Of a stretch of DNA of 32,358 bases, positions 3,418-23,585 are shown in pieces. The position numbers and the translations under genes were made by a program. The notes under the pieces were generated by a model. The model worked only from the letters and a program-made list of their open reading frames with translations. It did not search any database and was not told the origin of the DNA. The DNA comes from Floccifex porci (GTDB lineage Bacteria > Bacillota_I > Bacilli_A > Erysipelotrichales > Erysipelotrichaceae). Every line of letters begins with the position of its first letter. Position 1 is the first letter of the stretch. The stretch covers positions 1-32,358 of the forward strand of contig NZ_VUMM01000021.1 of NCBI RefSeq assembly GCF_009696175.1, given 5' to 3'.

Positions 3418-5683
3418 CCTGTAAGTCTCCTGCTAATTCCGTAAAATAAGCGGTATATCCAGCTACACGAACCGTTAAAGAACTATACTGTTCTGGATGG
3501 GCTTTGGCAGCCAGCAGATCCTGTTTAGAAACAACATTAAATTGAATATGAGGAATTTCCAGATCCACAAAAGTACGCAGGAAATTCGCAAATTTTTCAA
3601 TTCCAGATTGTGTTGAGAAAAATTCTGGTAAAAATTTCATATTTAATAAACCACCATTGGTTGTACACTGATTATCCAGACGAGAAACCGATTTTAATAC
3701 CGCTGTTGGACCATTTAAGTCTCGTCCATATACAGCCGATAATCCTCCATCGGCCAGCGGAGTCTGTGATAGACGACCATCTGCACTGGCTCCTACATTC
3801 TGTCCCATTGGAACATGAGCACTGACAGTATACATTCCTGTATGATAAGGACCCTTTCGATAATTTGTATATTTTTTTAATTTATTTCTGAACGCATTGG
3901 CCCATTTTGATCCCAGTTCATCCACCCATTGAATATCGTTTCCATATTTTTCTACACGATTCAACAATGTCTGACGTAAAACTTCCTGTCCTTCAAAATT
4001 TGTCTGTAAAGCATATTCCAGATCATGAGCCGAAATACGTTTTTCATCAAATACCATCTTCTTAATCGCTGCCATAGAATCCGCTAAATTGGCTACCTGT
4101 ATCATCTGGATTCCTGATAAGTTATAACGGGCTCCTCCATTGACAACATCCATACCTGATTCAATACAGTCATCAATGACACAGGACAGGAATGGAGTTG
4201 GCAAATGATCCTGATGTCCTTTTTCCACTTTTTCACAACATTCGATCATTTTATCAATGAAATAATCCATTGTTTTTTCAAAAGCGTTTTCCAGTTCTTC
4301 AAAAGAAGAATAGGTACTTAAAGAACCATAATCTGGTGACAGCTGTTTATGGGTAATTAAACATTTTCCATGATTTAAAGTCAATTCCAGTACTTTACAT
4401 AAATTGAACATTGCTGAATCGGACCATCCTAAATTGTTTCCCTGTGTTGTGATTTCAACACATCCAACAATGGCATAATCTCTGGCATCTTCTTTTGAAA
4501 TTCCCAGTTCTTCTAAAGCTGGAATCAGACATTTATCATTAAAGAACTGTGGCATTCCACTTCCTTTTGATACACAGCGTACCGCATGTTCTAACAGTTC
4601 CTGATTGGTTTTTTCATGTAGACGAACACTTAAATTTGGCTGAGGTAAACCAATTTCTTCCTGTGCTTTAATAAATAAATGACTTAATTCATTACAGAAA
4701 TCATTTCCATTTTCATCCACTCCCCCAACGGCAATATTAAATCCAATTGGGAATCCCGCAAAATATTTTGCACTATGAGCATTTCTTAAATATACAATCT
4801 GATTAAATTTTAACCACAGACATTCAATCAGTTCTAAAGCTTCTTCATCGCTAATCATTAATTCTTCTTTGTCTTTTTTATAGTAAGGATACAATGATTC
4901 ATCTAAACGACCTGGAGAAAAGCTGGAGGCATTACTTTCCATATGAAGAATAACCATTAAAAACCATAAAGACTGAATGGCTTCTCTAAAACTTTGTGCC
5001 GGACGAACCGATAAATCATGACAAATTTGAGCAACGTCTTCTTTTCCCATTGATTTTGCCAGAGTGGCATATCGATTCATAAAATTCTGTACACCCTTCA
5101 TCACAAGAATCACTGACTGATAGAACTCAATTTTCTTTTCATCTGTACAATCCTTTAATTTTGATTCAGCTCTTTGAATATAACCAGCAGGTCCTGTTTC
5201 CAGCCATTCCTTTACATTTGGACAAATATGTCCCTGTGCATGATCAGTCTGATTGATTTTTACAACAGTACTGATGGCAGAAATTTTTCCATCGGCCTTC
5301 ACATCATCTTCTAAAGATCTTCCTTTCCAGTAAGGAAGGATCACATTACGGAATGTTTCAATGTCTTCTGGATGTACATTGAATTTGTCCTGTGGACGAG
5401 TCGGAATGGTTTCAAATTCAGAATCTACCCAGCTGATCCCACTTTCTGGAAAAACCACTCCATATCTGGATCCTTTGGTACGATTTCCAACAATCAGTTC
5501 TTCTGATTCCATACCAATTTCAATTTCATTTAATGCATTATATAAAGAGTAAGCACGTTTCATCTGAACCGATTCATTCTCGTGTTCTTTATAAGTACGA
5601 GTAATGATCAAAGCCTGTTCAATGCTTACATAACGAGGACAAGATAACATTTTTTCTTTCAGAATTTCGATTCGTTTATTCAT
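3380..5683 (-). CDS. Glycyl radical enzyme of the PFL2/glycerol-dehydratase-like group, substrate unknown
   Basis: The 767-residue protein has both hallmarks of the family: the thiyl-radical cysteine in VGCVE (Cys408, Glu410) and the C-terminal radical loop RVAGYTAYF (Gly742, 25 residues from the end). An Asp 14 residues after the cysteine (GWSD, Asp422) occupies the place of a substrate-binding Asp in glycerol dehydratase. This suggests an eliminase (dehydratase, or C-N or C-S lyase) more than pyruvate formate-lyase. The sequence after the cysteine, GCVEITTQGN, differs from the GCVEPQ pattern I associate with glycerol dehydratase and choline lyase, so I do not assign a substrate. The ATG at 5683 is chosen because GGAGG lies directly upstream; a longer frame would need a TTG start. 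It forms an operon with the activase and has its own promoter and operator. No microcompartment genes are nearby. Confidence 0.88.
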   Translation of the reverse strand: MNKRIEILKEKMLSCPRYVSIEQALIITRTYKEHENESVQMKRAYSLYNALNEIEIGMESEELIVGNRTKGSRYGVVFPESGISWVDSEFETIPTRPQDKFNVHPEDIETFRNVILPYWKGRSLEDDVKADGKISAISTVVKINQTDHAQGHICPNVKEWLETGPAGYIQRAESKLKDCTDEKKIEFYQSVILVMKGVQNFMNRYATLAKSMGKEDVAQICHDLSVRPAQSFREAIQSLWFLMVILHMESNASSFSPGRLDESLYPYYKKDKEELMISDEEALELIECLWLKFNQIVYLRNAHSAKYFAGFPIGFNIAVGGVDENGNDFCNELSHLFIKAQEEIGLPQPNLSVRLHEKTNQELLEHAVRCVSKGSGMPQFFNDKCLIPALEELGISKEDARDYAIVGCVEITTQGNNLGWSDSAMFNLCKVLELTLNHGKCLITHKQLSPDYGSLSTYSSFEELENAFEKTMDYFIDKMIECCEKVEKGHQDHLPTPFLSCVIDDCIESGMDVVNGGARYNLSGIQMIQVANLADSMAAIKKMVFDEKRISAHDLEYALQTNFEGQEVLRQTLLNRVEKYGNDIQWVDELGSKWANAFRNKLKKYTNYRKGPYHTGMYTVSAHVPMGQNVGASADGRLSQTPLADGGLSAVYGRDLNGPTAVLKSVSRLDNQCTTNGGLLNMKFLPEFFSTQSGIEKFANFLRTFVDLEIPHIQFNVVSKQDLLAAKAHPEQYSSLTVRVAGYTAYFTELAGDLQDEIIARTSYDKI

Positions 5684-6712: not shown

Positions 6713-7889
6713 ATATTCCCACTTCTTCAAAAATATATTCATAAAGTTCCTGATTCAGTTTCATTGCACTTTGTGGTGCATTTTTCAATCCATGTTCTTT
6801 TAAACAAGTATATGTCAATAAATCATTGTTCACAAAATGAATGAGTTCCATCTGAAAAAAACGAGAATATTTCTGATTTCTTATAGATTCTGTTTTTGAA
6901 TACCAGAATTCTTCATACAGATCACAGGAAGATAGATTTATCTGTGTAACGATACACAGCGCAACTATTCTTTGAATGGGCCAGCTGCTGTATACTAAAA
7001 CAATATCTCCCACTTCAAAATTAAAAAACTGACGAGAAGTTAAAGTTTTATATTTTTTTAGACATCCCATATGATTAAATACATTGGGATTCATGGACAC
7101 GATCCATATCTTTTTATTCTGAATGGATATCAGCTGATTGGTAAAAGCTGATAAAAACATTTCCATTTCAAATTCATGTTCAAATTCATACTGAATACCA
7201 TAATGAATTGAATTTGTTTCAGGAAAACGTTTCAGATCCGAATTGTAATGCATGCATCCATTGTATCCTTTCATAAAGATATCCGGATGAATAACCAGAT
7301 TGTAGGTATCTGTTTTTAAACTGTAAATTGTTTCATTCATCACATTGTTTCGATAGGAAATGGCTTTTTCTGTTTCTGTTTCCTGTTCAAATCCATATTT
7401 CAATAATAAAGAAGAAATGTCTTTAAAATGAGAAAAAGAAGTCTTTTCCTGAACAAATTCCATACCAAATGAATGTAAAAAATGAATGGAATCCAGTTCC
7501 AGCCATTTCTTTTCTAAAGACTGGGCAATTTCATATGGGATTTGAATTCCACTGGATTTTGATAACCAGTTAAAATTTGAAGATATTTTTTTACATTCAT
7601 TCAGATTTAATATATCCTGTGTTTCATAATCATCAATGCGATCAAAGCAGACATAAATATAATGTATACCATCCTGTTCAAATACCGAACTCATTGCCTT
7701 TCCACTGGCAATGATTCCTTTAGGAAACTGCTTTAATTTCATTAAAAAAATGCGATCTTCTTTCTGAATGGATCGATTCTTTCCACAATTCCATTTCTGA
7801 TACGTACAGGCAACCTGTTCTATTTCATTCATTTTTTCTTTCCGACATTCCCAGCTTTCACTGTTCCATGTCAATAACCACGTTCTCAT
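6711..7889 (-). CDS. Protein with EVE/PUA-like domains at both ends, possible modified-base reader
   Basis: Three parts are visible in this 392-residue protein. Residues 1-130 (RTWLLTWN, CGKNRSIQKEDRIFLMK, PKGIIASGKA, SGIQIPYEIAQSLEKKW) resemble the PUA-superfamily domain that precedes HNH nucleases in McrA-like proteins. Residues about 155-250 form a middle region I do not recognise (HPDIFMKGYNGCMHYNSDLKRFP, HYGIQYEFEHEFEMEMFL). Residues 258-392 (KKIWIVSMNPNVF, FFNFEVGDIVLVYSSWPIQRIVA, ending NAPQSAMKLNQELYEYI) look like an EVE domain. These folds bind modified bases in DNA or RNA. I see no HNH, PD-(D/E)XK or ATPase motif, so the reader would need a separate effector or would act by binding alone. 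No ribosome site precedes the ATG. A TAAAAT box six bases upstream allows a leaderless transcript. Confidence 0.6.
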   Translation of the reverse strand: MRTWLLTWNSESWECRKEKMNEIEQVACTYQKWNCGKNRSIQKEDRIFLMKLKQFPKGIIASGKAMSSVFEQDGIHYIYVCFDRIDDYETQDILNLNECKKISSNFNWLSKSSGIQIPYEIAQSLEKKWLELDSIHFLHSFGMEFVQEKTSFSHFKDISSLLLKYGFEQETETEKAISYRNNVMNETIYSLKTDTYNLVIHPDIFMKGYNGCMHYNSDLKRFPETNSIHYGIQYEFEHEFEMEMFLSAFTNQLISIQNKKIWIVSMNPNVFNHMGCLKKYKTLTSRQFFNFEVGDIVLVYSSWPIQRIVALCIVTQINLSSCDLYEEFWYSKTESIRNQKYSRFFQMELIHFVNNDLLTYTCLKEHGLKNAPQSAMKLNQELYEYIFEEVGI

Positions 7890-14904: not shown

Positions 14905-14933
14905 TTGAATTTTATTGTATCATATTTTATGAT
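14905..14933 (+). promoter_or_regulatory. Host promoter spanning the left attachment site
   Basis: TTGAAT (14905-14910) and TATGAT (14928-14933) are separated by exactly 17 bp. The -35 lies in host DNA and the -10 lies inside the att core. It now points into the element. In a reconstructed empty site it would drive the aminotransferase at 21499. Confidence 0.5.
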
Positions 14934-14940
14934 TATATTA
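14923..14940 (+). repeat. attL core of the integrated element
   Basis: TATTTTATGATTATATTA is repeated exactly at 21464-21481, directly after the tyrosine integrase gene. The two copies bound the phage-like gene set and are unrelated outside the 18 bp, as expected for attL/attR. Confidence 0.8.
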
Positions 14941-14974
14941 TAAATACTAGATTTCTGGTATTAAGAAACATCAT

Positions 14975-14988
14975 TTCACGCTCAAATA
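14975..14988 (+). repeat. 14-bp inverted repeat partner near the left end of the element
   Basis: TTCACGCTCAAATA here is the exact reverse complement of 20208-20221, which lies over the small-RNA-2 promoter just before the integrase gene. The surrounding bases differ. It may be a shared protein-binding site (repressor, Xis or integrase arm). Confidence 0.5.
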
Positions 14989-14994
14989 AGTCCA

Positions 14995-15031
14995 ATATAT
15001 AACACTAAAACACCATACATTTGTTATATAT
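14995..15031. repeat. Inverted repeat in the left terminal region of the element
   Basis: ATATATAACA (14995-15004) and TGTTATATAT (15022-15031) form a perfect 10-bp stem around a 17-nt loop. It lies in the 226-bp gap between attL and the first ORF, together with the putative arm site at 15076-15092. Confidence 0.4.
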
Positions 15032-15075
15032 CAATCAAGAGGTAAAGAAATAACAAAGAAGCATAAAAGAAATAT

Positions 15076-15092
15076 CCCGGTGATTCCCCGGT
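15076..15092 (+). repeat. Putative integrase arm-binding repeats, left side
   Basis: CCCGGT occurs twice with an 11-bp period (15076-15081 and 15087-15092). The surrounding sequence matches 21371-21387 near the right end in the same orientation, including AAGAAA before it and ATAT after it. Paired direct repeats one helical turn apart near both ends are typical of arm sites bound by the N-terminal domain of Tn916-like integrases. Confidence 0.5.
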
Positions 15093-15166
15093 TAAAATAT
15101 CATCTGTTGGAAATACCAAAACATTCATAAAAAGAAATTAGATAACAGAACAAAAGGAGAACAAAA

Positions 15167-15415
15167 ATGAATTCAATAAATTTAACAGACAAATTAAACA
15201 AAGACTTTGAAAATGGAAAAAGATTAATATCCAATTCACATTATAGTTATGATTTAGAAATGATTGATTTTTTAAATATATTCAATCAAGTTAAAGGAGA
15301 TTTCGGAAACAATTTAGATCTGTTTTTAGATTTATCTATGGTTCTATATAACATTGGAATAAGTAAAGGATACAAGCTAAAAACAAATGAAATGAAAAGA
15401 ACAAAAGGGATCTAA
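15167..15415 (+). CDS. Small acidic/helical protein, possible element cargo
   Basis: The 82-residue product MNSINLTDKLNKDFENGK... has no motif I recognise. It looks soluble and helical, with a leucine-rich centre (GNNLDLFLDLSMVLYNIG) and a basic tail. AAGGAG lies seven bases before the ATG, and a strong terminator overlaps the stop codon, so it is a real monocistronic gene. It is the only plus-strand gene at the left end of the element and is separated from the replication genes by 660 bp. The host promoter captured at attL would read into it. Its position is where satellites usually carry accessory or interference genes. Confidence 0.65.
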   Translation: MNSINLTDKLNKDFENGKRLISNSHYSYDLEMIDFLNIFNQVKGDFGNNLDLFLDLSMVLYNIGISKGYKLKTNEMKRTKGI

Positions 15416-15430
15416 TGAATCCCTTTTTTT
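15403..15430 (+). terminator. Terminator of the 82-residue ORF
   Basis: AAAAGGGAT (15403-15411) pairs with ATCCCTTTT (15419-15427), with the TAA in the loop and a T-run to 15430. Confidence 0.85.
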
Positions 15431-16057
15431 ATGTCCTAATATAATGGGGTCGCATTTTGCTACTCCATAGATTTACACTTTTGTTTCTGCTATAGGGTAA
15501 CGTTTCGTTACTCCATTGATTAAATGTATTCCATTTTCAAATGACATTATACATCTGATAGAACGATTCGTTCGGTCTGCTTAAATTAATTGTATTCCTT
15601 TTCTAATGCCCCTATTCTTTTTATTTTGTACACCAGTATAGAAACCGACACCGAACTTTAAAAAAAGACTACAAGAATATATTTAGGGGTGTAGCTTTAA
15701 AGGTACTTTAAAAGCGAATACATAGCGATTTATATTTCATGATTAATTATACTAGAAATGTTTAAAAGAGCCTTATATTCGCTTTATGCGCTATTAAAAT
15801 TGATTTTATTCAAGAAACCCTATCTTTTTAGCTACTATTTCATGTTTGTTTAGTCATGCCCCTCTAACCCGTTCTCCAAAAAATTTATATCGATTTTTTT
15901 ACAAGTAGGGGGTAATGGTATGATACAAAATAAAAATATCTGTATAAATATTTATCGTTTGTATTTAATCGTTGTTATTTCGTTGTTAAACTATGTTTTT
16001 CTTTGATTCTTCACTGGTTCTTCACGGCTTTACCAATACTTAAAGCAAAACAAAAAA
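15431..16057. other. Repeat-rich non-coding region, candidate replication origin or control region
   Basis: No gene is visible here. It holds hairpins GTAACG-TTT-CGTTAC (near 15500) and GAACG-ATT-CGTTC (near 15562), and a long-range inverted repeat AAAGCGAATA (15711-15720) / TATTCGCTTT (15776-15785). Two direct repeats have 11-bp period: CGTTGTTA at 15970 and 15981, and TTCTTCAC at 16007 and 16018. The arrangement downstream of the helicase gene suits an origin, a strand-initiation site or a packaging (pac/cos-like) site of a satellite. Confidence 0.45.
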
Positions 16058-16074
16058 AAGGGAGAAACTCCCTT
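16058..16074 (-). terminator. Terminator of the replication operon
   Basis: AAGGGAG (16058-16064) and CTCCCTT (16068-16074) surround an AAA loop, with eight T following on the minus strand. Confidence 0.85.
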
Positions 16075-16078
16075 ATAT

Positions 16079-17284
16079 TCATTCTGGTCTTTCTTCAAAT
16101 ATTTGATATCCTTTTCTAAAAATCAATTCCTTTTGTCTGTTTATGTCATTCCTTGATTTTGGAGTTATCAATTCATACGTGGCATTTATACTCGTTTTAT
16201 CATCTGAAATATCATGAAGTAAAAATACATTGTCTGAATCTTCTTCAATTGAGCCACTCTCTTTTAAATCTTTTTCTGTTGGTCTGGAATTCGTATCGCT
16301 TCTCCTTAATTGAGCCAATGCAAATATAACACAATTCATAGAAGCTTTAATATTTAGCAATTGTTTTGTAATATGATTTATTTTTTCTCTTAAATTTGTA
16401 AATCTTCTTAATGTATCAATATTATTTATGTTATCTAAAAATACAATACAGAAATCATTTCTTGTTTCTTCTGAAATGATTCTTTTTATGGTCTCAATAT
16501 TAGAAGCTTCTCTTGAATCATATAGTTTTATTTTTAAACCGTTTCTTATTCTATAGATTGAATCCGATACTTTATTTTCGTTTTTTTGTTCTTTTATCTG
16601 ATTTTTTGTAAGCCTTGAATCTATCTGAATCAATCTCTGGTAAATGACATCTTTAGGGTTTTCAAGATTAAAATAAAGACACCTATATTTTTTCCCTAGA
16701 TCCAATAGAAGATTTAATGAAAATGCCGTCTTTCCTTTTCCGGTTCTCGCTCCTATTGTGTTTAACGTGTTGAAAGATATCTCAAAATCTTTCATAAATG
16801 ACAAATCAAAAATTAAATGCGATTTTTCGTTTGTGACTAGATTGAAGATTTCTTCTTCTGTTAGTATCTCTCCGGTTCTAGTATTGTGATAATAATTTGG
16901 AATATCTTCAATCATTGAAATAATCTCTTCAAAATCATTTCCTTTTGAATCATAGATAAGTTCTTTCATTTTTCTTTTACGAAATTCATTGTTTATAAAC
17001 TTTATATCGTTTTCAATATTGTGGTCAGAAAAAGCATTATCATTAATACTACATACTATATCTAACATCTTATTATCATTCATAAAAGATTGGAGTATCT
17101 TCTGATAGTCTACTTCATGATATTTTATATACTGGTTTTTCATTTCTTCGAATATAATTCCATACTCTTCTATACTGAAAATATCTTTGTCCAGATAATA
17201 GATATCAAACAATTCTGAATTAAACATGAAAGAAGAAATTAATCTTGATTCTATATTCTGTAAAGGGTTATTCACATTCGGCAT
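16079..17284 (-). CDS. DnaB-like replicative helicase of the element
   Basis: The 401-residue protein has a short DnaB-type N-terminal domain (starting NNPLQNIESRLISSFMFN) and a RecA-fold ATPase. Walker A is GARTGKGKTA (178-187), followed by CLYFNLENPKDVIYQRLI. Later come IVFLDNINN (Walker B strand), FALAQLRR, and the KDLKESGSIEEDSDNVFLLH segment typical of DnaB sensor regions. It would unwind DNA at the element's own origin. Its ATG overlaps the end of the upstream replication gene by 17 bp, with GAGG nine bases upstream. It is last in the operon and is followed by a terminator. Confidence 0.85.
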   Translation of the reverse strand: MPNVNNPLQNIESRLISSFMFNSELFDIYYLDKDIFSIEEYGIIFEEMKNQYIKYHEVDYQKILQSFMNDNKMLDIVCSINDNAFSDHNIENDIKFINNEFRKRKMKELIYDSKGNDFEEIISMIEDIPNYYHNTRTGEILTEEEIFNLVTNEKSHLIFDLSFMKDFEISFNTLNTIGARTGKGKTAFSLNLLLDLGKKYRCLYFNLENPKDVIYQRLIQIDSRLTKNQIKEQKNENKVSDSIYRIRNGLKIKLYDSREASNIETIKRIISEETRNDFCIVFLDNINNIDTLRRFTNLREKINHITKQLLNIKASMNCVIFALAQLRRSDTNSRPTEKDLKESGSIEEDSDNVFLLHDISDDKTSINATYELITPKSRNDINRQKELIFRKGYQIFEERPE

Positions 17285-18128
17285 TTTGCATTGCCTCTAT
17301 TTCTTCTTTTGTTGGATATCTGTCTTCTTTGAAGTGTATACTTTTTTGTTTTTCACTGTTTCTTATAAACAATTCAATAACGCTAAAATGTGAATCATCT
17401 GGATATTTATCCTTATTGCAATGAATATAAAAAGAAACTTCATCTATATATTTATTTATGTCATACTTTGGATATAAACTATTTAATTCGTTTAATTGAG
17501 ATTCTGATATGTATACATTTTTATATCTACCTTTTCCTTTATTATCTATATTATTAGTATTATTAATATCTATTATATTAGATTCTATTCCATTACATTC
17601 TTTTATATTAGATTCTATTATATTATATTCTATTATATTAGACCTCATATGACTATCATTTGATATCATATGACTATCATTTGATATCATATGACTATCA
17701 TTATATGCTATATTTTCTTTATTTAAGAAGTTTGTATTTAATGTTTTATATCTTGTGTATTCTTCTATGCAATATGGGTTAAATATATCTAAATCCTTTA
17801 AATATTCCAATAAGAAATCCTTTAAGTATTCATCTTTAATTTCTCCGTTCTCGATTCTTTCTTTATGATGAGTTTTCCATGAAGCTTTCCTTTTTTCTAA
17901 GCATGAAGAAATATAATTTATTTTATTGTCTCTGATATCTTCAAACATCATAGAACAAATCATTTCTTCTATCTGGTCTAGTTTTGGTATATCTGTATTT
18001 TCTCCTTTAAAATAGTGAATACATGAATCCATTACATTTTTTAACTGTTCTTTATTTAATTTTAATAGCTGCGATAGCATTTTTTCTTTGATTAGCATTC
18101 CACAATATGATTTTTGATTTTTTGACAT
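17268..18128 (-). CDS. DUF6291-like replication organiser with internal repeat tract
   Basis: The 286-residue protein probably opens the element's origin and recruits the helicase encoded next. Residues 1-95 (MLIKEKMLSQLLKLNKEQLKNVMDSCIHYFKGE..., EEMICSMMFEDIRDNKINYISSCLEKRKASW) resemble the DUF6291-type N-terminal domain of phage replication proteins. A low-complexity middle (about 140-190) contains three tandem NDSHMIS units and NIIESNI-like units. The C-terminal part (LYPKYDINKYIDEVSFYI...) is DnaD-like in position only. The repeats are also exact at DNA level, which suggests an origin within the gene. AGGGAG precedes the ATG. Confidence 0.6.
   Translation of the reverse strand: MSKNQKSYCGMLIKEKMLSQLLKLNKEQLKNVMDSCIHYFKGENTDIPKLDQIEEMICSMMFEDIRDNKINYISSCLEKRKASWKTHHKERIENGEIKDEYLKDFLLEYLKDLDIFNPYCIEEYTRYKTLNTNFLNKENIAYNDSHMISNDSHMISNDSHMRSNIIEYNIIESNIKECNGIESNIIDINNTNNIDNKGKGRYKNVYISESQLNELNSLYPKYDINKYIDEVSFYIHCNKDKYPDDSHFSVIELFIRNSEKQKSIHFKEDRYPTKEEIEAMQNAECE
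17570..17640. repeat. AT-rich degenerate repeats within the replication gene
   Basis: Variants of ATATTAGATTCTATT recur at short intervals directly beside the 21-bp repeats. The tract is almost free of G and C and would melt easily, as expected for an origin unwinding element. Confidence 0.45.
17646..17708. repeat. Three tandem 21-bp repeats (iteron-like) inside the replication gene
   Basis: The units 17646-17666 and 17667-17687 are identical, starting CATATGACTATCATTTGATA. The third (17688-17708) matches its first 15 bases and then diverges. Each encodes seven residues of NDSHMIS type. Tandem repeats next to an AT-rich tract inside an initiator gene are the classical layout of lambda-type origins. 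Confidence 0.6.
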
Positions 18129-18141
18129 ATGTACACTCCCT

Positions 18142-18450
18142 CTATATCCAAAAACATTTATCTAGTTTTTCCGATATTTTACGCATTATATGTTGCTTAA
18201 TTAATAGGCATTCAGTGCAAAAAAATACGATTTTTTTTCTTTCGTAATTAAAGCGTTCTTGTAATGTCAAAAATACTTCATCTTCAAATATGCTTAAACC
18301 GAGAGATTCCGATATTTCGTTTCTTCTAGTAATGAATTCTTTTAAAGATTCACTGTTTTTACTATTGTATTCGATATTCTGGTTAAAAATAATTTCATTA
18401 GAATCAAGATCTATAACTGAAACTTTGTATCTCAATATGTTTTTTTTCAT
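18142..18450 (-). CDS. Unknown element protein (102 residues)
   Basis: The product begins MKKNILRYKVSVIDLDSNEI and has an EFITRRNEISESLGLSIFEDEVFLTLQERFNYERKK core. A cysteine pair follows in FFCTEC. I recognise no family. The ATG at 18450 is preferred because AGGAG lies seven bases upstream; the in-frame ATG 18 bp earlier has none. It lies between the HTH gene and the replication organiser, so it is probably an accessory replication or regulatory protein. Confidence 0.6.
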   Translation of the reverse strand: MKKNILRYKVSVIDLDSNEIIFNQNIEYNSKNSESLKEFITRRNEISESLGLSIFEDEVFLTLQERFNYERKKIVFFCTECLLIKQHIMRKISEKLDKCFWI

Positions 18451-18460
18451 TTTGTTACTC

Positions 18461-18727
18461 CTATTCATTATTTTCTAAGTCGTTCAATGCTTCTTTTACA
18501 TGTTCTGGATTAGAAATATCATATCCAGTAAAGCGATCTAAAATACATTCTATTTCTTTACGAGAATAAATATAATTTTTTCCGGTTCTTAATCCCTTTA
18601 ATAGTCCGTATTGTCTCCACATAGTAATCTGGTTTTTATTGCAATGGAAAATATTGCATAAATCATTGGTAGTATAGGTAGGTACTAGATTTACGCTATC
18701 TTTTAACATCTGATTTTCTTTTTTCAT
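18461..18727 (-). CDS. Small HTH protein (MerR/AlpA/excisionase-like)
   Basis: The 88-residue protein contains a winged-helix motif of the MerR/HTH_17 type: TYTTNDLCNIFHCNKNQITMWRQYGLLKGLRTGKNYIYSRKEIECIL. Such proteins in satellites and prophages act as excisionases or as activators like AlpA. No Shine-Dalgarno sequence lies before the ATG. Instead a possible leader ORF ends two bases upstream (TAA at 18732-18730), and a hairpin precedes it, so translation may be coupled. The hairpin loop is complementary to the small RNA at 20138-20197. This makes it the likely regulated target of that RNA. Confidence 0.7.
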   Translation of the reverse strand: MKKENQMLKDSVNLVPTYTTNDLCNIFHCNKNQITMWRQYGLLKGLRTGKNYIYSRKEIECILDRFTGYDISNPEHVKEALNDLENNE

Positions 18728-18729
18728 AA

Positions 18730-18762
18730 TTAGTATCTGGAGAGAATAGAAATGTTGCTCAA
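18730..18762 (-). CDS. Possible 10-residue leader peptide coupled to the HTH gene
   Basis: A TTG at 18762-18760 preceded by AAGGA with a six-base spacer opens the codons for (M)SNISILSRY and stops two bases before the ATG of the HTH gene. Since that gene has no ribosome site of its own, translation through this leader could be needed to start it. The 21-nt complement of the small RNA (18751-18771) covers exactly this ribosome site and start. The peptide is short enough to be chance. Confidence 0.35.
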   Translation of the reverse strand: MSNISILSRY

Positions 18763-18780
18763 AATTATTCCTTTCTCTCC
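18739..18780 (-). promoter_or_regulatory. Leader hairpin and antisense target site of the HTH gene
   Basis: GGAGAGAA (18739-18746) and TTCTCTCC (18773-18780) form a perfect 8-bp stem. The loop (18747-18772) contains a 21-nt stretch (18751-18771) found in small RNA 2 in the orientation that makes the two transcripts complementary. A further CTTTCTC block beside it extends the match with a two-base gap. Confidence 0.65.
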
Positions 18781-18793
18781 GTTTTTATCCTTT

Positions 18794-18973
18794 CTATTCG
18801 TTTGCTAGTTCATCAATGATTTTAAAAATCTTTTGTTTTTCTTCTTCAGAAAACTCTTTTCTAAGTTTTCGTGAGAAATAATTGTCGGTAATGCCTAACC
18901 TATCGGCAATTTGCCATAATCGAATATCTTTTTTATTTGCATATTCTCTTACATCATAATTTGATTTTTTCAT
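18794..18973 (-). CDS. Cro-like small HTH protein
   Basis: The 59-residue product MKKSNYDVREYANKKDIRLW continues with QIADRLGITDNYFSRKLRKEFSEEEKQKIFKIIDELANE, a minimal lambda-repressor-like helix-turn-helix. The start at 18973 is fixed by AAAGGAGG six bases upstream; 15 further in-frame codons lie before it without a ribosome site. It is the first gene of the minus-strand operon, facing the repressor gene, which is the position of str/cro in phage satellites. It would antagonise the repressor at the shared operator region. Confidence 0.75.
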   Translation of the reverse strand: MKKSNYDVREYANKKDIRLWQIADRLGITDNYFSRKLRKEFSEEEKQKIFKIIDELANE

Positions 18974-19067
18974 GTTATCCTCCTTTCTTTTCTGTTGTTG
19001 TTGAAACATAAAAATCATGTGTTATAATTTAGATAGTAAAACATCAAATAGAACATTTTGTTTTACA

Positions 19068-19093
19068 TATCCTATTCAAAGGATAACATATGT
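19068..19093. promoter_or_regulatory. Operator-like palindromes in the repressor/Cro divergent region
   Basis: TATCCT-ATTCAA-AGGATA (19068-19085) is directly followed by the palindrome ACATATGT (19086-19093). A looser pair TAAAACA/TGTTTTA flanks the left side. They lie in the 224-bp gap between the divergent Cro-like and repressor genes and are the expected binding sites for both. Confidence 0.5.
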
Positions 19094-19134
19094 ATTTTTT
19101 AAATTCTATATACATGAATTATTTAGAACTACAA

Positions 19135-19164
19135 TTGTATTTAATTATTTTTTTGTTCTATACA
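19135..19164 (+). promoter_or_regulatory. Promoter of the repressor gene
   Basis: TTGTAT (19135-19140) and TATACA (19159-19164) have an 18-bp spacer. The ATG at 19198 lies about 27 nt after the predicted start. Confidence 0.5.
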
Positions 19165-19197
19165 ATGTGTTTTATCTTTAGAAGAAAGGGTGACATA

Positions 19198-19926
19198 ATG
19201 GAAACTTTAGGAGACAGAATAAAAAAAATTGCAAAGAAAAAAAAATTAACATATAGAGAAATAGCAAAAGACACCAGTTTATCATTGAATACCATAAGCA
19301 AAATAGTAAACAATCAAACCCAAAGTATTTCCAGTGAAACATTAAAGATTTTTTGTGACAAATTAGAAGTTTCATCTGACTATTTACTTGGACTAGATGA
19401 AGAACCGTCAAGAGATTTTGATTCTAAAAAAATTTCTAAAGAATTAGGATTAAGCCTAAAGAGCATACAAAAAATAAAAAGGTTAAAAATAAGAGAAGAA
19501 ATCGCTAATAAAAGAGAACAAGAAAAAAGAGATGATTTAAACAAATCTCCAATAAGAACTATATCCTCTATTTCTGATGACATACATTTACTTGGACACC
19601 CCTTAACTTCTTTAGACAAACTTTTAAAAGATGACTTTATAAATATAGATGAACTATTAATTTCAATTGTTGAATATCTTTATTTTGATAAAGACAGTTT
19701 AAACTTTGGAAATATTGCTATTATTAACACCGACAATTTATTCAAAGATGAAGAAAACGGAACTATTTATATGAATGATAAATGTAATATTGTACGAATG
19801 ACAAGCCCTACTATATATGAGGAATTGTTATTATCTAGAATAGAGCAAAATCTAATTGAAACAAAAGAAATATCTAAATTTATGAAAAAAGAAAGATTAT
19901 ACATAGAAAACACTGAAAACCAATAA
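19198..19926 (+). CDS. Phage-type repressor with XRE helix-turn-helix
   Basis: The 242-residue protein begins METLGDRIKKIAKKKKLTYR and has an HTH_3 domain over residues 1-65 (EIAKDTSLSLNTISKIVNN, ending DYLLGLDEEP). The remainder (about 70-242) shows no S24 peptidase Ser-Lys pair that I can see, so it is probably not cleaved by RecA-type autoproteolysis. In Gram-positive satellites the equivalent Stl repressor is released by binding a helper-phage protein. The start is set by AGAAAGGG eight bases upstream; a longer frame from 19090 encodes an implausible hydrophobic leader. It is followed by the small-RNA region and the integrase. Confidence 0.8.
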   Translation: METLGDRIKKIAKKKKLTYREIAKDTSLSLNTISKIVNNQTQSISSETLKIFCDKLEVSSDYLLGLDEEPSRDFDSKKISKELGLSLKSIQKIKRLKIREEIANKREQEKRDDLNKSPIRTISSISDDIHLLGHPLTSLDKLLKDDFINIDELLISIVEYLYFDKDSLNFGNIAIINTDNLFKDEENGTIYMNDKCNIVRMTSPTIYEELLLSRIEQNLIETKEISKFMKKERLYIENTENQ

Positions 19927-19936
19927 CGATTAAAAC

Positions 19937-20008
19937 AAAAAAATCTTTCACTACTGGCAATAGTGAAAGACGAGTGCAATAACATATTTTACGGACACGT
20001 TTTTGCAC
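19937..20008 (-). ncRNA. Candidate small antisense RNA 1 of the element
   Basis: On the minus strand an extended -10 box (TGC then TATAAT at 20018-20013) is followed by a hairpin GAGTGCAA/TTGCACTC (20010-20003 with 19979-19972) with a 23-nt loop. It ends in a perfect 10-bp terminator stem (19970-19961 with 19953-19944), loop TTGCCAG and seven T. The exact 5' end is uncertain by a few bases and may trim the first stem. It shares layout and terminator loop with small RNA 2, but its loop has no complement that I can find in the window. Confidence 0.55.
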
Positions 20009-20137
20009 TCCTATTATAGCAAATGAAACCAAAGAAAACGCAAGAAATAACACTGAAGTATCTGATTATTATGAGAATTTTTACGCTAAATATGACGATA
20101 TAAACGTATATGAATTATAGCCTTAACGCTGAAATAT

Positions 20138-20197
20138 AAAAAAAATCTCCATACTGGCAATATGGAGAAAGTGGAATAATTTTGAGCAACATTCCAC
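20138..20197 (-). ncRNA. Candidate small antisense RNA 2, complementary to the HTH gene leader
   Basis: On the minus strand TTGATT, a 17-bp spacer and TAAAAT (20207-20202) precede a hairpin GTGGAAT/ATTCCAC (20197-20191 with 20177-20171). This is followed by a terminator stem TCTCCATA/TATGGAGA with loop TTGCCAG and eight T. The first hairpin and loop contain 21 nt identical to plus-strand 18751-18771. The RNA is therefore perfectly complementary to the minus-strand mRNA leader of the small HTH gene, and the two loops can kiss over 13 nt. Confidence 0.65.
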
Positions 20198-20207
20198 CTC
20201 TATTTTA

Positions 20208-20221
20208 TATTTGAGCGTGAA
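20208..20221 (+). repeat. 14-bp repeat over the small RNA 2 promoter
   Basis: TATTTGAGCGTGAA is the exact reverse complement of 14975-14988 near attL. It occupies the spacer between the -35 and -10 of small RNA 2 and lies 37 bp before the integrase ATG, so a protein bound here could affect both. Confidence 0.5.
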
Positions 20222-20257
20222 TAAAATCAAGAAATAAGAAAGTAGAGGAAATGAAAA

Positions 20258-21406
20258 ATGTCAATTACTGAAAGGATTGGAAAAAAAGGCATTACATACG
20301 AATTAGAGTATTATGTGATTGAAAAAGGAGAAAAGAAAAGAAAGACAAAAAACTTTAAGACAAAAAGAGAAGCAGAAGCATTTGGCCGTAAAATGGAAAT
20401 GGAATTTGAAAAAACAAAAGCATTGATAGAAAGTGGAAATTATTTTATTTTTAGTGATAAAACATTTGATGAAGTATGGAATGAATATCTGGAAACGAAA
20501 GACTATGAATTTTCCAACCAGACAAAACTAAGCTATATAAGTATATATTCAAACCATATTAAACCGGTTTTTGGAAATGAAAAAATATCCAGTATAAAAA
20601 AAGGAATGATACAGAAGTTCATGAACGAAAAAAAATCATATTCTAAATCAACGCTGCTCATTCTAAAAAACATATTATCAGATACTTTCAATTATTCTAT
20701 TGATATGGATTATATACAAACATCACCTATGCAAAATATAAAGACAAATTCTAATAAGAGAAAAGAAGCAAATAAAAGAGTTCTTACACATAATGAATTT
20801 ATTTCTTTAACAGAGGCGTTTGAAAATGAAAAAGATATCTTTGATCAATCATGTTTGATTGCAATATATATCGGTTATTATTTAGGATTGAGAAGAAGCG
20901 AAATACTTGCATTGTGTAAAGAAGATTTTGATTTCCAAAACAATGAAGTAAATGTACATAGAAAAGTAGAGTACATTCCAAAAAACGGTAGCATAATTAC
21001 AGAAAGAATGAAAACAAAAAAATCTAAGGCAATTTTACCAGTATGTAAACCATTAAAAGAAAAACTGATTGAATGGTTTAAAATAAATCCTTTTGACCTA
21101 GTATGTACGAATTCTAATGGAGATATATTATATGCATGTTCCGTTAGTTCAAAAATACAGAAGAAAGCAGAAAGCATTGGCATATCAGATTTTACAATGC
21201 ACGCACTACGCCGTTCATTTATTACAAATTTAGTTGTGAATAACGTGGATATCAAAACGGCTACAGAACTTTCAAGACATAGCACTTGCAATATGACATT
21301 AAATATATATGCTCAAACAAATATAGAAAACATGAAAAAGGCAATTCAAAACACATTCAATCAAGAAAATTCCGGTGATTTCCCGGTTCATAATATTTTA
21401 GCATAA
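20258..21406 (+). CDS. int: Tyrosine integrase (Tn916/phage type)
   Basis: The 382-residue recombinase would integrate and excise the element at the 18-bp core. It has an N-terminal arm-binding domain (1-65: KGITYELEYYVIEKGEKKRKTKNFKTKREAEAF), a SAM-like core-binding domain (about 68-165) and a catalytic domain. Catalytic residues are Arg212 (GLRRSE), a lysine near 252-254, His315 and Arg318 (HALR), His341 (SRHST) and Tyr351 (NIYAQ). The ATG follows an AGAGGAA ribosome site. The last codons contain one copy of the CCGGT-type arm repeats, and attR begins 57 bp downstream. Confidence 0.93.
   Translation: MSITERIGKKGITYELEYYVIEKGEKKRKTKNFKTKREAEAFGRKMEMEFEKTKALIESGNYFIFSDKTFDEVWNEYLETKDYEFSNQTKLSYISIYSNHIKPVFGNEKISSIKKGMIQKFMNEKKSYSKSTLLILKNILSDTFNYSIDMDYIQTSPMQNIKTNSNKRKEANKRVLTHNEFISLTEAFENEKDIFDQSCLIAIYIGYYLGLRRSEILALCKEDFDFQNNEVNVHRKVEYIPKNGSIITERMKTKKSKAILPVCKPLKEKLIEWFKINPFDLVCTNSNGDILYACSVSSKIQKKAESIGISDFTMHALRRSFITNLVVNNVDIKTATELSRHSTCNMTLNIYAQTNIENMKKAIQNTFNQENSGDFPVHNILA
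21371..21387 (+). repeat. Putative integrase arm-binding repeats, right side
   Basis: TCCGGT (21371-21376) and CCCGGT (21382-21387) are 11 bp apart, within the 3' end of int. Together with flanking AAGAAA and ATAT they match the left set at 15076-15092 in the same orientation. Confidence 0.5.
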
Positions 21407-21414
21407 AAAAATTA

Positions 21415-21446
21415 GTAATATCTGGCTAATATTAGCCAGATATTAC
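21415..21446. terminator. Perfect 32-bp palindrome after the integrase gene
   Basis: GTAATATCTGGCTAAT is followed directly by its reverse complement, giving a perfect 16+16 palindrome. The plus-side T-run is weak (TGTTTT). The minus side has CTAATTTTTTT, so it may stop transcription in both directions or be a binding site next to attR. Confidence 0.6.
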
Positions 21447-21463
21447 TGTTTTAGAATAATTGC

Positions 21464-21481
21464 TATTTTATGATTATATTA
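21464..21481 (+). repeat. attR core of the integrated element
   Basis: This is an exact copy of the 18-bp core at 14923-14940. It ends directly before the AAAAAGGAGG ribosome site of the aminotransferase gene, so the insertion lies in that gene's promoter and 5' leader. Confidence 0.8.
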
Positions 21482-21498
21482 AAAAAGGAGGATGTTTT

Positions 21499-22705: not shown

Positions 22706-22736
22706 AAAAAATTGTCTGTTAAACAGACAATTTTTT
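22706..22736 (+). terminator. Bidirectional terminator between aminotransferase and Rpn-like genes
   Basis: AATTGTCTG pairs with CAGACAATT, extended by A- and T-runs to 13 bp, around a TTAAA loop. It serves both convergent genes and overlaps the stop of the gene at 22719. Confidence 0.8.
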
Positions 22737-23585
22737 TGATGCCAGCAATTCTTTAACAGAATCTATACTGCAGTTTAAAGCCTGAGAAATCGTTTCCAGA
22801 TTAAATCCCATTTTTGTCATATTCACAGCCAGAGAAATCTTTTCTTCTCGCTGTCCTTCACGTTTTCCTTCAAGTTTTCCTTCTAGTATTCCTTCACGCT
22901 TTCCTTCAAGCCTTCCTTGGGCTCTTTCACTTTTCGCAAATTCTTCCAGCAGTTCACACATTTCCTGTTTCTCCTTTTCTCTTGTCTTTATTTTTCGAAC
23001 CGATTCTCTTAATTCTTCAATAACCATTTTCTGATAGTCACTGCATGAAAAATCATGCATTAAATATCCTAACTCATCCTGGTTTCGATACTGACCATTG
23101 ACATAATACAGATTCATGCGATCTTTAAAAGGACAATGATTCAATTCTTTTATAGTTCTTTGAATATGATATACAGGATATCCTTTATGGTAATAGTCTT
23201 CTTCGGTAATAAAAAGAATATGAATATTTCGAATCTCATCAAATTTTATGCTTTTTTTGGCATATTCTACATCCAGGACGCTGGCATAATATCGAAGTCT
23301 TTCTACAGGTGCTTTCTTTGCACTTCTTTCCACTTCAATATCATAAATGTTTCCATCTGTATCCTCAATCACAATATCTGGGATGATAGATCGAGACAGA
23401 ATCTGTTTCATGTCTTTTTGAATTTCATATTTTCGGATTTTAATATCGGTTCGATTCAATAAAATATTCAGTATCCTTTGTACAAGTTCTTTATTGTCTT
23501 TAAACAGGATACGCATAAATATATCATCAAAGGGTCGTAACCTTTCAATGATATCAAGATACTTTTTATTTTCCGCCGCGGGCAT
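22719..23585 (-). CDS. Rpn/PDDEXK-family nuclease-transposase-like protein
   Basis: The 288-residue protein belongs to the Rpn/PD-(D/E)XK transposase-like family common in gut Firmicutes. LRPFDDIFMRILFKDNKELVQRIL is the family N-terminus. The nuclease core is visible as PDIVIEDTDGNIYDIEVE followed by RLRYYASVLD. A repeat tail of EGKREGILEGKLEGKREG type (about residues 225-245) precedes a C-terminal helical segment. Such proteins bind or cut DNA and may promote recombination. The ATG used (23585) has no ribosome site. A good site (GAGG) precedes another ATG 17 bp upstream in a different frame, which hints at a one-base change at the start. Confidence 0.75.
   Translation of the reverse strand: MPAAENKKYLDIIERLRPFDDIFMRILFKDNKELVQRILNILLNRTDIKIRKYEIQKDMKQILSRSIIPDIVIEDTDGNIYDIEVERSAKKAPVERLRYYASVLDVEYAKKSIKFDEIRNIHILFITEEDYYHKGYPVYHIQRTIKELNHCPFKDRMNLYYVNGQYRNQDELGYLMHDFSCSDYQKMVIEELRESVRKIKTREKEKQEMCELLEEFAKSERAQGRLEGKREGILEGKLEGKREGQREEKISLAVNMTKMGFNLETISQALNCSIDSVKELLASKKLSV

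Follow-up and report, generated by a model that had tools for sequence, protein, structure and literature searches.

The window (the whole stretch of 32,358 nucleotides analysed here) contains an integrated element of about 6.5 kb, in which two short units predicted to encode structured small RNAs lie in tandem between a cI-like repressor gene and an integrase gene. The locus raises the question of what these RNAs recognise and whether they contribute to the regulation and immunity of the element, as an earlier note based on the same sequence had proposed.

The element and its two RNA units

The element (14923..21485) is bounded by a 22-nt direct repeat, TATTTTATGATTATATTA(T/A)AAA, identified by repeat search at 14923-14944 and 21464-21485; in a contig of the same genus (G003:C113), the genes for a CAAX-protease and an aminotransferase are adjacent and the element is absent between them. 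Its minus strand encodes, in map order, a DnaB-like helicase (16079..17284), a putative replication initiator (17268..18128; a weak DUF6291 match, under the family cut-off), a 108-aa open reading frame, a MerR-like HTH protein (18461..18727) and a small HTH protein (phrog_17740; 18794..19018), which is the first gene of the early operon. These are followed by the cI-like repressor (HTH_3) on the plus strand (19090..19926, with a likely start at 19195 or 19198), units 1 and 2 on the minus strand, and a tyrosine integrase on the plus strand (20258..21406). With its integrase, divergent regulator and operon, replication genes and att repeats, and its lack of structural genes, the 6.5-kb element may be a PICI-like phage satellite, but no packaging-interference gene was recognised in it. 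A DNA search of phage and plasmid records with the whole element gave no match, and protein scans of IMG/VR with DnaB, the MerR-like protein and the repressor gave no relatives. A terminator-like hairpin of 15 bp (21414-21447) is located directly 3' of the integrase gene and adjoins the right repeat, and further along the window an open reading frame (22719-23585) contains a 12-bp repeat run near its C-terminus, encoding GKLEGKREG-type repeats.

Both units are present on the minus strand where the earlier note had placed them, as judged by folding, an architecture scan and covariation, and both consist of a hairpin, a short spacer, a terminator hairpin with the loop TTGCCAG and a T-run. Unit 1 (19937..20008, read from 20008 to 19937) is predicted to give an RNA of ~72 nt with the hairpin GAGTGCAA...TTGCACTC and the intrinsic terminator CTTTCACTA-TTGCCAG-TAGTGAAAG, followed by T7, whilst unit 2 (20138..20197, read from 20197 to 20138) is predicted to give one of ~60 nt with the hairpin GTGGAAT...ATTCCAC and the terminator TCTCCATA-TTGCCAG-TATGGAGA, followed by T8. 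The terminator loop is identical in the two units, as had been claimed, and varies around TT(N)GCC(A)G in relatives. Compared with dinucleotide shuffles, the folding energies are -31.4 kcal/mol (z = -7.35) for unit 1 and -21.7 kcal/mol (z = -4.21) for unit 2, and a scan of both strands of the 32-kb window for a hairpin followed by a terminator hairpin and a T-run recovered units 1 and 2 only.

Each unit had also been credited with a -10 box, and the two boxes differ in quality. Unit 1 has a good extended -10 element (TGCTATAAT), with TATAAT at 20013..20018 (minus strand) extended by TGC, located by an exact pattern at 20002-20018 and by aligned upstream regions, and a similar box, TGCTATAATAGGAG or near it, is found in most relatives. 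The box of unit 2, TAAAAT at 20202..20207 (minus strand, in TTGATT-17-TAAAAT, 20230-20202), is weaker. Transcription of unit 1 would start at about 20008, inside AGGAG, a position that fits the two outermost stem pairs being the weakest among the aligned sequences. One copy of TTCACGCTCAAATA is located towards the left end of the element, at ~14976 (plus strand), and an inverted copy at the promoter of unit 2, at ~20219 (minus strand), and CACGCT is found upstream of the -10 box in L061, L062, L150 and L236; these could be sites for the integrase or a regulator.

Covariation and relatives of the units

The earlier note had observed that the stems of the two units differ in sequence yet stay paired, and had taken this covariation as an argument for function as RNA, an argument that is weak for two copies and becomes strong once nine sequences, drawn from eight genomes or contigs, are compared. 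The stems were not registered by MAFFT, and pairs were counted from N-padded rows placed by hand. Standard pairs occupy 98.2% of 171 cells in the nine hand-registered sequences, a percentage that is inflated because the alignment was fitted by hand to the structure and so leans towards it. Changes on both sides of the stem, found in 17 of 21 stem pairs, are hard to obtain from a structure-fitted alignment; pairing falls to 34-53% when the partners are slid by 1-3 columns, and for four of the five measures of stem covariation, no shuffle out of 500 did as well.

Relatives were gathered with the repressor and later with the MerR-like and small HTH proteins, and the loci obtained belong to two families within a single order (Erysipelotrichaceae and relatives). 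Other genomes with the paired architecture, the absence of which would have spoken against the earlier reading, were found among them: about ten related elements carry one unit each in the same place, divergent from the integrase gene and convergent with the 3' end of the cI-like gene. The same architecture with a single unit is present in L016, L017 (Faecalitalea cylindroides), L018, L061, L062, L069, L150 and L154, units almost identical to that of L150 occur in G310 (L236) and L190, and a further unit occurs in G160 (L234). Units 1 and 2, the paralogy of which is supported, belong to a real RNA family that has no Rfam match; the C4 covariance model gave no match at gathering score in the window or in seven relatives. 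No description of the family was found in the open-access literature, a scope outside which most subscription papers and preprints fall, and this absence is no proof.

Two further loci, L152 and L148, contain weaker unit-target pairs in other contexts and are left as unproven. In L152, a similar divergent hairpin-terminator unit (5558-5636) accompanies a same-strand near-complement (7169-7194) in another phage type, and this unit is possibly a distant version of the system. Four skipping-rope RNAs (RF02924) were also noted, in L061 (8099-8195 and 9232-9311) and L062 (12265-12347 and 13116-13212).

Target hairpins and specificity groups

That unit 2 has a target inside the element, as the earlier note had stated, was confirmed by duplex searches and shuffling. 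A perfect complement of 21 nt, GGAATAATTTTGAGCAACATT, is located at 18751..18771 on the minus strand, which is unit 2's own strand; the complementarity extends to 35 nt at 86%, the best duplex has an energy of -37.5 kcal/mol, and the score was equalled by none of 400 shuffles (z = 9.0). The target is displayed in the loop of a hairpin, GGAGAGAA..TTCTCTCC (18739..18780, minus strand), which separates the small HTH gene from the MerR-like gene immediately downstream. The unit 2 gene and its target are thus on the same strand, ~1.4 kb apart and without overlap, the gene lying beyond the cI-like gene.

The RNA in at least eight related elements matches, perfectly or nearly, a hairpin that belongs to the replication operon of its own element. 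Of the eight relatives, seven contain an ungapped same-strand target within their own operon. In L061, L062, L069, L150 and L154 this target immediately follows the MerR-like gene; L018 shares the arrangement of the window, with the target flanked by the HTH and MerR-like genes; and in L016 the target falls at the 3' end of dnaB and precedes no known replication gene. L017 has a bulged target only (-28.1 versus -26.7 for the next best site), and no target was found for L234/L064. The assembly of G310, which is split within the element, offered a small test: one contig carries the unit close to its end, and the predicted target was recovered close to the end of a second contig, following the MerR-like gene. 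For seven of the nine units tested, the best duplex lay on the small RNA's own strand and exceeded all 400 shuffles (z = 9.0 for unit 2, and 8.7, 5.3, 11.9, 8.8, 13.1 and 8.7); L154, which was left out of the shuffles, scored 54.5 against 32.5 for its next best site. Each element has one target, with the next best sites at background. Among the candidates rejected, the apparent target in L169 seems to be an IS inverted repeat, the strong duplexes on the opposite strand in L056, L083 and L052 resemble tRNA genes or copies of att, and matches to the TATAATAGGAGYGYAAA pattern without hairpins were discarded.

The target hairpins have stems of 6-11 bp whose sequences differ between elements, and individually these stems are modest (chance P of 0.003-0.47), that of L016 being no better than random positions (P = 0.47). 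When all RNAs were paired with all targets in a matrix, each RNA gave its lowest energy with the target of its own element or of a closely related one (-27 to -40 kcal/mol), whereas other pairs mostly reached -6 to -20 kcal/mol, the main exceptions being partial cross-pairing between the L061/L062 and L150/L154 groups. The earlier proposal that specificity is determined by the loop is supported, and about six specificity groups are apparent (window unit 2; L016; L018; L061/L062; L069; L150/L154/L017/L234).

Unit 1, in contrast to unit 2, is an orphan, and the earlier failure to find a target for it was borne out: its best site in its own element was matched or beaten by 286 of 400 shuffles, and in the cross-pairing matrix its best energy was -17.7 kcal/mol, with no good partner. 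The search of other genomes for the complement of its loop, which the earlier note had advised, yielded no credible match in IMG/VR, in phage and plasmid records or in 2.07 Mb of related loci. Across the 272 genomes examined from the family (its own and 271 others), 13 non-self matches were obtained when up to three mismatches were allowed, about as many as with the reversed-pattern control and hence at chance level. The strongest of the unit 1 matches, in L107, can be read as GDNIFYGNGFT and, judged from its sequence, looks like a housekeeping nucleotidyltransferase gene. The suggestion that unit 1 provides a second immunity specificity, aimed at a helper phage, a sister element or the host, is possible but unproven; the unit may be an RNA left over after an immunity module was exchanged, or it may be active against an element outside the collections.

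There is an even chance, in our estimate, that unit 1 is a relic, in which case the element would be a recombinant in which the target of a former immunity module was replaced and the RNA retained. Consistent with this, the element lacks a unit 1 target, and the unit 1 loop resembles that of the group whose target follows the MerR-like gene (AAAAACGT..AATATG), a position at which no convincing unit 1 target was found in the window by the cross-pairing matrix. The stretch between the units could, moreover, contain the 3' end of another gene, as an open frame on the plus strand (20022-20117, NETKENARNNTEVSDYYENFYAKYDDINVYEL*) looks like the end of a lost gene; against this, the supposed remnant has no convincing homologue in 266 genomes, and unit 1 itself is intact, with its promoter, both stems and terminator present and eight of eight stem pairs kept. 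On a more speculative and rather unlikely view, the mobile elements of these gut bacteria gather antisense RNA genes, one directed at their own target and others, unit 1 among them, at competing elements or helper phages, and tandem units would then constitute a small RNA-based interference array. The sequence expected in the loop of a unit 1 target is AACATATTTTACGG(A/G)C(A/G)CGTTTTT, adjoining HTH or MerR-like genes.

Proposed mode of action and related systems

The family probably represents trans-acting antisense RNAs that silence the replication genes of their element, and thereby contribute to lysogenic control and superinfection immunity, resembling P4 CI and P1 c4 in action whilst being a member of neither family. 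In this model, RNAs of 60-75 nt from temperate mobile elements would be transcribed divergently from the integrase, from a gene between it and the cI-like gene. The specificity loop of unit 2 would pair over 21 nt with the hairpin loop in its own early replication operon (18739-18780), silencing the downstream genes for the MerR-like protein, the putative initiator and DnaB. In the integrated state the RNA would back up the cI repressor and, because it is encoded in trans, could extend its action to the mRNA of any newcomer that carries the same target, which would amount to superinfection immunity; the element's cI-like repressor is a further likely immunity determinant. We infer that the units are transcribed, that the sign of the effect is repression and that immunity is the outcome.

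Silencing could proceed through RNase III cleavage of the ~20-bp duplex, which is long enough for this enzyme, through premature termination or through a block of translation. The distance from target to ribosome-binding site varies between elements, so cleavage or termination would fit best; the target hairpins showed no clear intrinsic terminator. The replication genes downstream of the target include a Phage_rep_org_N replisome organiser (L061), a D5-type primase/helicase (L069), a Prim-Pol (L150) and DnaB (window, L018), and as these are of unrelated types, the common part is the RNA-target pair and not the replication protein.

The presence of replication genes of several unrelated types downstream of the target also favours a narrower role, to which we give perhaps one chance in three, that of limiting the replication operon of the excised element (copy-number control) with no immunity against newcomers. 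Plasmid antisense RNAs of the pMV158 RNAII type are encoded opposite their target, whereas the RNA gene here is ~1.4 kb away, in an immunity-region position beside cI and int. The control of repB by pMV158 RNAII (PMC4485353) offers a parallel for copy-number control. The specificity groups would be expected from either immunity or incompatibility, and to this extent the two readings overlap.

It is improbable that the RNA activates, opening the target hairpin upon pairing so that transcription or translation proceeds. The target is itself a hairpin, and in L150/L155 it is directly followed by a hairpin enclosing the AAAGGAGG ribosome site, but no alternative fold common to the targets is evident and the analogous pairing in P4 and P1 is repressive. 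That the units are mere transcription terminators of the neighbouring genes is scarcely credible, since, strong as the intrinsic terminator at the end of each unit is, its T-run belongs to the strand that does not encode cI and int, conservation extends to the promoter and the first hairpin, and trans targets are matched by the loops. Control of a type I toxin-antitoxin system was set aside, as the genes beside the target are those of regulators and replication proteins, and no small hydrophobic ORF was noted at that site.

Silencing of replication genes by a trans-acting antisense RNA, the preferred reading, can be compared with several known systems. Plasmid copy-number RNAs (pMV158 RNAII, pIP501 RNAIII type) are likewise short hairpin RNAs directed against the mRNA of a replication gene, but are encoded in cis on the opposite strand, whereas the RNAs here are encoded elsewhere on the same strand as their target. 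STnc6030 of the Salmonella prophage BTP1 is also a prophage RNA, and gives superinfection exclusion (PMC7067206), but it is 786 nt long and antisense in cis to structural genes. The c4 antisense RNA of P1 and P7 (Rfam C4) governs heteroimmunity between relatives and shares with the present family loop-borne specificity sequences and action in trans (PMC12197685); its target is, however, the antirepressor mRNA ant near the ribosome site, whereas the targets here are in replication operons and adjoin HTH, MerR-like and replication genes, not an antirepressor gene.

The CI RNA of the satellite phage P4 is a small antisense RNA by which an integrated element silences its own replication genes via leader sites (PMC4825925), and unit 2 is similarly complementary to a hairpin in the replication operon of its own element. 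In P4, CI RNA arises by processing of a transcript that also contains its two targets, seqA and seqC, on either side of the RNA gene (PMC4825925), whereas unit 2 has its own predicted -10 box and terminator across the cI-like gene, ~1.4 kb from the one target found, and the units have no Rfam match. RNA and target co-vary as about six specificity groups across elements with unrelated replication genes, groups that predict which elements can co-reside in one cell, and the loop and target hairpin are short interchangeable parts suited to reporters. Antisense RNA immunity has so far been associated with a few enterobacterial phages and satellites (P4, P1/P7), to which the RNAs described here would add a separate, stand-alone family from Gram-positive gut bacteria.
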